Part shown: in pieces, positions 8,037 to 9,111 of the stretch
How positions within the stretch are numbered: position 1 is the stretch's first letter
Layout of the letters: each line of letters starts with the position of its first letter
Virus record (IMG/VR): IMGVR_UViG_3300020473_000111
Coordinates: 1-26,124 of that record
DNA length: 26,124 bases
Direction: 5' to 3' (one strand)
From: a virus
Made by a program: the position numbers and the translations under genes
The notes under the pieces: generated by a model
Told to the model about the DNA's origin: nothing
What the model saw: the letters and a program-made list of their open reading frames with translations, nothing else
Databases searched by the model: none

Positions 8037-8054
8037 TGATCTTTGGTAATTTAA

Positions 8055-8340
8055 GTGGCCCGTTCTGTTGCCAGGTGGGCCAAACCCCGAAATCAGTGGA
8101 CTAGGCCGCTAATCTCAATTTGGACATACCAACTGTTAAGTCAGCAAATCCTAATGCTCTTTTGTTTGCATTTAAAAACTGGCCGTTACCTCGTACCAAC
8201 TGGGTAAACTCCATTGTGCTTTCATAATACGTCGATCCTAAGTCACCCCCGGAAGGGTTTACATAAGCCACCAATCCTAGTATGGTGGAGGTGCTGGGTA
8301 CTGCCCCCAGGTCCGTCAAAACTATTACACAACTTCAACG
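8055..8340 (-). ncRNA. ssrA: Circularly permuted two-piece tmRNA
   Basis: tmRNA with SmpB rescues stalled ribosomes and adds a degradation tag. In minus-strand order there is an acceptor piece with T arm CTGGG-GGCAGTA-CCCAG (8294-8310), acceptor strand CACCTCC (8287-8293), discriminator A and encoded CCA (8283-8285). A 32-nt intervening segment (8251-8282) follows, then the coding piece starting GGGGGTG (8244-8250). That start pairs with CACCTCC over 7 bp (one G-U), and a D-loop-like CTTAGGATCGACG follows. The pieces also pair as a P2-like helix, 8323-8333 with 8213-8218 and 8225-8229, around a 6-nt bulge. A pk1-type pseudoknot (GTTTACC/GGTAAC plus AGTTGG/CCAGTT) precedes the resume codon GCA (8167-8169). 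The 22-codon tag starts ANKRAL and ends KLRLAA before TAG (8101-8103). A GGCCC/GGGCC hairpin (8057-8081) closes the coding piece. The permuted order is typical of alphaproteobacterial tmRNA. The outer ends are estimates. Confidence 0.92.
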
Positions 8341-8351
8341 CCTACAAAATT

Positions 8352-8380
8352 ATTTAAGCATAGAGTTGACCTTTTGTCAA
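8352..8380 (-). promoter_or_regulatory. Sigma-70 promoter of tmRNA
   Basis: TTGACA (8375-8380), a 17-nt spacer and TTAAAT (8352-8357) on the minus strand, start near 8345. Its -35 and that of the plus-strand promoter form an inverted repeat, TTGAC-cttttGTCAA-like, so the two promoters are divergent and share about 15 bp. Confidence 0.65.
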
Positions 8381-8394
8381 GTTTATAGTATTAT
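8366..8394 (+). promoter_or_regulatory. Sigma-70 promoter of the bL12 operon
   Basis: TTGACC (8366-8371), a 17-nt spacer and TATTAT (8389-8394) on the plus strand. The ATG at 8402 follows after 7 nt, so the first gene is predicted to be leaderless. It overlaps the divergent tmRNA promoter. Confidence 0.75.
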
Positions 8395-8401
8395 TTTTTA
8401 T

Positions 8402-8605
8402 ATGCCAAAAATGAGAAAATTTAAATTTGACGACGGAAAGGAAGTCAAGGAAGTAGAAGCATTATCTTTCAAGAAGGCTGTGAAGTCATTTCAGGGGTCT
8501 TCTAAGGCAAAAATGGTAACTATTGAGTGGACGACGAAGAAAGGTATAGAGTTCGTCAAACAACAAATTTTACCATTAGGTAGAGCCAAAAAATTAGGAA
8601 GATAG
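8402..8605 (+). CDS. Basic 67-aa protein in translation module
   Basis: It starts MPKMRKFKFDDGKEVK and is rich in Lys (net positive), with alternating beta-type and helical segments and a basic end (LPLGRAKKLGR). The frame is open further upstream, but ATG 8402 is the first start after the promoter, and no Shine-Dalgarno exists. It heads the operon that continues into a 51-aa gene and bL12. Nucleic-acid or ribosome binding is a reasonable guess from charge and context. No family recognised. Confidence 0.72.
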   Translation: MPKMRKFKFDDGKEVKEVEALSFKKAVKSFQGSSKAKMVTIEWTTKKGIEFVKQQILPLGRAKKLGR

Positions 8606-8606
8606 A

Positions 8607-8762
8607 GTGATAATAAGTCATAACCCGTTGATTAGAATGTTAGTTAGGTTGAGAATGTGGTATGCAGATATCCGAGGGCATCATGGAAAAAGATGGGACT
8701 ATGAGCCTGGAGACAACTACATGGGCATGAAGAAATCGAAAAAACATGGCAAAAACGATTGA
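8607..8762 (+). CDS. 51-aa basic peptide overlapping bL12 start
   Basis: GTG at 8607 follows the previous stop after 1 nt and has AGGA 7 nt upstream; an internal ATG at 8637 would give 41 aa. The peptide is rich in Arg, His, Trp and Lys and ends KKSKKHGKND. It overlaps the bL12 ATG by 17 nt, so translation is probably coupled. The basic, Gly/His/Lys-rich tail loosely recalls ribosome-binding rescue peptides, but similarity is too weak to assign. Its place between a basic protein and bL12 suggests a translation-related job. Confidence 0.55.
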   Translation: MIISHNPLIRMLVRLRMWYADIRGHHGKRWDYEPGDNYMGMKKSKKHGKND

Positions 8763-9111
8763 AACATTAGTAGAAGAATTGGGAAAACTAACAGTTGTAG
8801 AAGCACTAGAACTGTCTAAAAGATTAGAAAAAGAATGGGGAGTGACTGCAACAGCAGGAGCACCAGCAACAGCACCAGTCGAGGCAAAACCTGCAGATGC
8901 ACCAGTCACTGTAATATTAACTGGATTTGGTGAAAACAAAAAAATTCCTGTATTGAAAAAAGTAAGAGAGTTCACAAGTTTAGGATTGCTTGAGGCAAAA
9001 CAGTTTGTAGAAGCATTACCAAAACCCGTCAAAGAAGACATTGACAAAGAAGAAGCAGATAAAATCAAAGCGGCCTTAGAAGCAGAAGGCGGCACAGTCG
9101 AAATCAAATAA
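8746..9111 (+). CDS. rplL: Ribosomal protein bL12 (L7/L12), 121 aa
   Basis: Full length and intact. Residues 1-35 are the dimerisation domain (VEELGKLTVVEALELSKRLEKEWGV), 36-52 an Ala/Pro hinge, and 53-121 the factor-binding domain with VILTGFGENKKIPVLKKVRE, then LGLLEAKQFVE, PKPVKE, and a closing E-A-E-GGTVEIK. bL12 forms the ribosomal stalk that recruits EF-Tu, EF-G and other GTPases. The ELSK-x-LE-x-x-WGV motif is the alphaproteobacterial form. Some changes are visible: T-E/D-F before VIL is replaced by DAPVT, and GLGLKEAKDLV is GLLEAKQFV. In the phage it could replace host L12 on ribosomes late in infection. It is third in the operon from 8366-8394 and converges on the 407-aa gene with no gap. 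Confidence 0.96.
   Translation: MAKTIETLVEELGKLTVVEALELSKRLEKEWGVTATAGAPATAPVEAKPADAPVTVILTGFGENKKIPVLKKVREFTSLGLLEAKQFVEALPKPVKEDIDKEEADKIKAALEAEGGTVEIK

Follow-up and report, generated by a model that had tools for sequence, protein, structure and literature searches.

How tmRNA works in trans-translation, releasing stalled ribosomes and marking incomplete proteins for degradation, is established in general terms, and the reason phages carry tmRNA is an unsettled question. Among phages, 133 unique tmRNA structures have been described, 53 of them two-piece, and permuted forms occur in 17/47 Melnitz-like contigs (PMC9004378). The Methylophilales phage Melnitz (MZ577097; PMC9004378) is a marine T4-like myophage with a permuted alpha-type tmRNA. 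Its ssrA gene lies upstream of the late-transcription coactivator with a glutamine riboswitch and encodes a 14-aa tag, ANDNYVPVDYALAA. Permuted tmRNAs are also carried by Sphingobium phage Lacusarx and by Pelagibacter phage HTVC008M (KC465899, near 145182; L199), a SAR11 myophage in which the gene is unannotated and the tag, ANFNEYALAA, has 10 aa. A second translation component, bL12, is encoded by some phages and is able to enter ribosomes (Mizuno et al. 2019, PMC6375957).

The locus compared here lies on a 26-kb contig of a marine T4-like phage, IMG/VR record IMGVR_UViG_3300020473_000111, whose analysed stretch of 26,124 nt is called the window. Its T-arm/acceptor core is nearly identical to that of Melnitz (91% over 34 nt), but there is no overall DNA match between the two tmRNAs at the blastn level, the tag has 22 aa in place of 14, and the gene is divergent from a small protein gene, p67. 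HTVC008M also has a p67 homologue, but away from its tmRNA, near 30402 of the 147-kb record, and its tag is less than half as long as that of the window. When the window tmRNA and that of a relative (L101) were compared with 50,697 phage records by blastn, no match was found. Among the phage records only Melnitz, HTVC008M and Lacusarx were matched by a short tmRNA core, with weak E-values. With alphaproteobacterial ssrA (RF01849; Caulobacter) the window gene shares gene order, acceptor stem, T-loop class and the AACAGAA that follows the tag, but it scores 105 bits against RF01849, where bacterial genes mostly score 140-310.

Gene identity and RNA anatomy

The locus was examined using Rfam cmscan and ARAGORN. 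The alpha_tmRNA model (RF01849, curated cut-off 50 bits) matched over its full length, 1-355, at 8389-8054 on the minus strand with 105.1 bits and E = 5e-28. The tmRNA_permuted model (RF04321, cut-off 47 bits) matched 8345-8137 (-) with 88.9 bits. ARAGORN called a 'tmRNA*', its permuted class, with the tag ANKRALGFADLTVGMSKLRLAA. In both the cmscan alignment and the ARAGORN call the CCA-ended 3' part comes first, followed by an intervening sequence and then by the 5' part with the tag. The locus at 8054-8345 (-) is a phage-encoded permuted (two-piece type) tmRNA gene of the alphaproteobacterial type. The sequence-only reading had proposed a permuted tmRNA here rather than a 72-aa ORF, and the model matches and the covariation described below bear it out. 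Its view of the known phage tmRNAs as one-piece is outdated given the 53 two-piece structures, and a permuted form in a T4-like phage, which it considered notable, was already published for Melnitz (PMC9004378). We put the probability that the gene encodes a functional, trans-translating permuted tmRNA at about 85%.

The acceptor piece (8283-8345, -), delimited by the RF04321 start at 8345 and by helices and covariation, contains the 5' half of the inter-piece helix, the T arm, the 3' acceptor strand, A73 and an encoded CCA. The CCA is at 8285-8283 (-), directly after discriminator A8286. A 32-nt intervening sequence (8282-8251, -), placed by the permuted order in the cmscan alignment, lies between the CCA and the 5' acceptor strand of the predicted precursor and is predicted to be removed. 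It occupies the same place in relatives, well kept in most and replaced in some. The coding piece (8054-8250, -) contains the 5' acceptor strand, a D-like loop, the inter-piece helix, the pseudoknot region, the tag frame, a stop-codon hairpin and the 3' pseudoknot with AACAGAA. These assignments come from RF01849, ARAGORN, the alignment and pair counts, with the pseudoknots read by eye. Judging from the permuted gene order, the mature RNA would consist of two pieces.

On the minus strand, GGGGGTG (8250-8244) pairs with CACCTCC (8293-8287) to form a 7-bp acceptor stem split by the 32-nt spacer. The T arm CTGGG-GGCAGTA-CCCAG is at 8310-8294 (-), a D-loop-like GGATCGACG is near 8238-8230 (-), and the inter-piece helix starts at 8345 and finds its partner at 8209-8204 (-). 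The sequence-only reading had recognised each of these elements, as well as the encoded CCA end, and all were found in place. It had also regarded the T-loop GGCAGTA as a departure from the usual form; the Rfam alpha_tmRNA consensus at this position is GGCgGUA, and relatives have either GGCAGTA or a TTCRANT-like loop.

Pairing was tested in 31 aligned relatives over the acceptor stem, T stem, inter-piece helix and stop-codon hairpin. Across the 31 sequences 94.9% of cells are paired, and sliding the pairing partners drops this to 33-45%. Changes on both sides were observed in 24/36 pairs, amounting to 214 such cells compared with a shuffled mean of 61. The acceptor and T stems are paired in 31/31 sequences, with compensatory changes. 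Inter-piece helices 1-3 have 89-99.5% of cells paired and compensatory changes in 16/17 pairs. The alanine-identity G3.U70 pair, A73 and the encoded CCA are invariant (31/31), and compensatory changes occur at two other acceptor pairs. A fixed G3.U70 pair among covarying neighbours is as expected if recognition by alanyl-tRNA synthetase is kept. Apparent compensating changes between the upstream and loop segments of the pseudoknot before GCA were seen by eye in the alignment. The cmscan E-value of 5e-28 and the compensatory changes in 24/36 pairs together exclude chance.

The window does have a 72-codon open frame at 8319-8101, which would make the stretch a protein gene and its likeness to tmRNA incidental. 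The base-pair covariation is overwhelming against such a protein. Furthermore, the frame, whose conservation the sequence-only reading had wished to see checked, is closed in nearly all relatives; only 2/41 sequences, one of which is the window, keep it open for at least 50 codons ahead of the tag. The 72-aa protein was rejected, and we give it virtually no chance. Fragments of ssrA are known in prophages (discussed in PMC9004378), so the locus might instead be a piece of host ssrA acquired when excision was imprecise, or a chimera created in assembly. The genes flanking the tmRNA are phage genes, however, and a complete tmRNA gene with the same neighbours is present in dozens of independent viral contigs. 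This synteny refutes a fragment or chimera, either of which would be very improbable.

The tag and selection on its core

The tag frame (8101-8169, -; GCA...GCC TAG), called by ARAGORN and kept in relatives, runs from the resume codon GCA at 8169-8167 (-) to the stop codon TAG at 8103-8101 (-). It ends in LAA and TAG, as first read. The sequence-only reading had remarked that 22 aa is longer than usual for a tag; the remark holds and proved the productive lead. Tags of alphaproteobacterial genomes, read likewise, mostly begin with ANDN and have about 10-13 aa. The ANDN start was present in 37/54 ARAGORN calls on bacterial loci, where many of the other calls look doubtful and come from small genomes; tags from small bacterial genomes that look wrong were left out as evidence. 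The phage tag, which begins with ANKR, falls outside the alphaproteobacterial host type (ANDN start, roughly 9-15 aa).

Relatives were collected from viral contigs in six scans, four based on patterns and two on proteins, and 45 distinct tmRNAs bearing a matching tag had been gathered before the last two of the six. The tags of this lineage follow the pattern AN[KRT][KR]-ALGFADLTV-GMSEL-RLAA, in which the five residues before RLAA vary. They have 22-25 aa, the 23-25 aa variants including ANKKALRFADLVAMPTSRSELRLAA. RLAA is present in 45/45 lineage members listed, but tag codons 19-20 take part in the stop-codon hairpin; its conservation is therefore partly at the RNA level and not assignable to the peptide alone.

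Because a search by tag pattern biases the core, a tag-blind sample was picked by the intervening sequence alone. It consists of 38 distinct complete scaffolds, three of them read by eye. A long tag was present in 35/38 and a short tag in 3/38, ADESYAHEELALAA twice and ADENLALAA once. The sample includes 23 distinct tags of 22 codons, among which pN/pS was 0.06 (bootstrap 0.03-0.10) in core codons 5-13, nine codons in related, recombining sequences, compared with 0.62 in the flanking codons overall (0.59 in codons 1-4 and 0.65 in codons 14-18). The difference between core and flanks indicates that the peptide itself is selected. The tag core ALGFADLTV is under amino-acid-level selection. Given the short tags of sister scaffolds, the long tag seems to have arisen by replacement inside the phage lineage; that it displaced a short one, and not the reverse, is the direction we infer.

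The RNA around the tag is a mosaic. The tag averages 82% identity, compared with 61-75% for the other tmRNA segments. In ten sequence pairs identity reaches 97% or more in one segment and is below 50% in another. For example, L105 and L108 are 98-100% identical in the tRNA part and 60% identical in the pseudoknot segment. The simplest reading of these comparisons would be segment exchange between phage tmRNAs.

These results bear on whether the window encodes an ordinary host-type tmRNA that boosts ribosome rescue, with tag length and core the product of neutral drift in one phage lineage. The permuted tmRNAs of Melnitz, HTVC008M and Lacusarx have ordinary short tags, as do sister phages with the same intervening sequence, and both facts fit such drift. 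Neutral change does not account for a tenfold lower pN/pS in the core than in adjoining codons, nor for a tag more conserved than every other segment of the RNA. Drift is therefore unlikely, yet it keeps appreciable weight beside a selected tag.

The tag-core pattern was searched for in 240 sampled alphaproteobacterial genomes and was matched in one MAG (MED657), apart from one unrelated match. The MED657 matches are two phage contigs inside the MAG, and MED657's own tag is ANDNEMALAA. MED657, which bins two phage contigs with lineage tmRNAs (L023, L166, L167), is labelled Rickettsiales. Cultured phages yielded no homologous tag, and all known members of the lineage are metagenomic contigs. 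No paper naming the tag core was found in a literature search of mainly open-access journals. A permuted phage tmRNA is a known kind; the selected long tag, seemingly unreported, would be the new part, and it may have been listed earlier, for instance in a tmRNA tag database.

Other long tags occur as well. A second long basic tag of 24 aa, ANKRFVSEVKIPSNFVVGRELLAA, is present in related phages (L007, L011, L018, L019, L020). Further long tags called by ARAGORN, AKKSTTFASILPVKVERVSLVQEALAASA and AKASTGEVTVSAKNLKFRTLAAKGQSLAV (L002, L003, L017, L033), have unusual ends.

Proposed working of the phage tmRNA

The anatomy suggests how the RNA may be processed, charged, bound by SmpB and used in tagging. 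The tmRNA would be transcribed from a sigma-70-type promoter. Host tRNA-processing enzymes would cut out the 32-nt intervening sequence, leaving acceptor and coding pieces joined by helices, and the G3.U70 pair would direct charging with alanine. Host SmpB would carry the phage tmRNA, which would then rescue ribosomes stalled in infection and attach the 22-aa tag to their products. A search of 35 viral contigs, one of them 172 kb long, found no SmpB, so the RNA would depend on that of the host.

In other bacteria the ANDN start overlaps the SspB-adaptor site, and in alphaproteobacteria ANDN would be this site. The phage tag lacks the ANDN/ANDEN stretch: in this lineage the ANDN start is replaced by basic residues, and the new core ALGFADLTV would alter the handling of tagged proteins. 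Since the tag ends in RLAA, tagged fragments would probably still be degraded by ClpXP-type proteases. No SspB was found in the 20 contigs searched. A strong ClpP homologue (251 bits; L241, on the lineage contig of L148) is present in 1/20 contigs, so ClpP is not a general partner. Selection has kept the core at the amino-acid level while compensatory change and segment exchange reshaped the scaffold around it, a contrast which suggests that the tag peptide has a function in its own right. We tentatively propose, at somewhat less than even odds, that a protease, an adaptor or another partner specifically recognises ALGFADLTV, and that during infection proteins with this tag are routed unlike host-tagged ones.

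The RNA could also be mainly a decoy, sequestering host SmpB or obstructing trans-translation in the host, a role that has been proposed for a mycobacteriophage DS6A molecule with a tRNA-like part only. An RNA with only the tRNA-like domain inhibits tmRNA (PMC4131195), and a phage RNA from contigs without their own SmpB must share that of the host. A decoy, however, needs no coding part, stop codon, LAA end or selected tag core, and all are kept here. The DS6A-type molecule lacks a tag coding part; in the window the tag frame is present and conserved. A decoy is accordingly improbable, much more so than drift, and a tagging tmRNA is preferred.

Promoters, neighbouring genes and probable host

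The putative promoter of the tmRNA, read from the sequence, is at 8352-8380 (-), outside the interval of the sequence-only reading. It consists of TTGACA (8380-8375), a 17-nt spacer and TTAAAT (8357-8352). TTGAC[AT]-N16..18-TTAAAT or TATAAT is at the same place in 41/41 relatives with enough flank, and this promoter is of the sigma-70 type. The -35 element is inside an inverted repeat of the TTGAC-N5-GTCAA type that is common to the tmRNA promoter and a divergent one; the repeat, with a spacer of 4-6, is present in 27/41 relatives. The candidate divergent promoter, for p67, p51 and bL12, is the best-scoring site of the scan (TTGACC, 17 nt, TATTAT; 8366-8394, +). A late-promoter reading of the -10 TTAAATA was set aside, as the total of HTAAATA motifs is below chance. 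In the window 17/17 of these motifs are on the minus strand, many just before start codons.

The gene p67 (67 aa; 8402-8605, +) is present in 39/45 relatives, always on the strand opposite to the tmRNA. It usually lies 220-275 nt upstream of the tmRNA resume codon. It has 269 relatives in viral contigs and a conserved P.GR..K end. A beta-beta-alpha-beta-beta fold is predicted; the predicted structure gave no significant fold match, and family searches returned no family. In 58/80 of the best p67 relatives no tmRNA was found nearby, within stretches some of which are short, so p67 is not tied to the tmRNA. The next gene, p51 (51 aa; 8607-8762, +), is kept beside p67 in 35/45 loci.

A bL12 gene with both L7/L12 domains (PF00542, 1.9e-25; PF16320, 1.5e-13) follows at 8746-9111 (+). 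It was considered as a linked gene and rejected, because it is found in only 7/45 tag-lineage loci, the window among them, and the constant partner is p67. Compared with the phage bL12 of Mizuno et al., a full bL12 is beside a tmRNA here, and the main text of PMC6375957 does not mention tmRNA. Relatives of this bL12, 55-82% identical, are present in 18 viral contigs, some of them without a tmRNA.

Other neighbours encode a tail-spike-like protein, a PAAR protein and a virion structural protein. The ribonucleotide reductase is closest to those of T4-like cyanophages (68-69% identity). Among the 50,697 phage records p67 homologues were found in only six, all Pelagibacter (SAR11) records of T4-like myophages and podophages. 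These homologues and the alpha-type tmRNA make a SAR11 host likely. An alpha-type tmRNA is possible in the phage of a gammaproteobacterial host, as in Melnitz (PMC9004378). The tmRNA-p67 unit has one orientation relative to nrdA/nrdB in 14 cases and the other in 10. That it is found both ways round with respect to nrdA/nrdB and p407 suggests repeated inversion of the segment.
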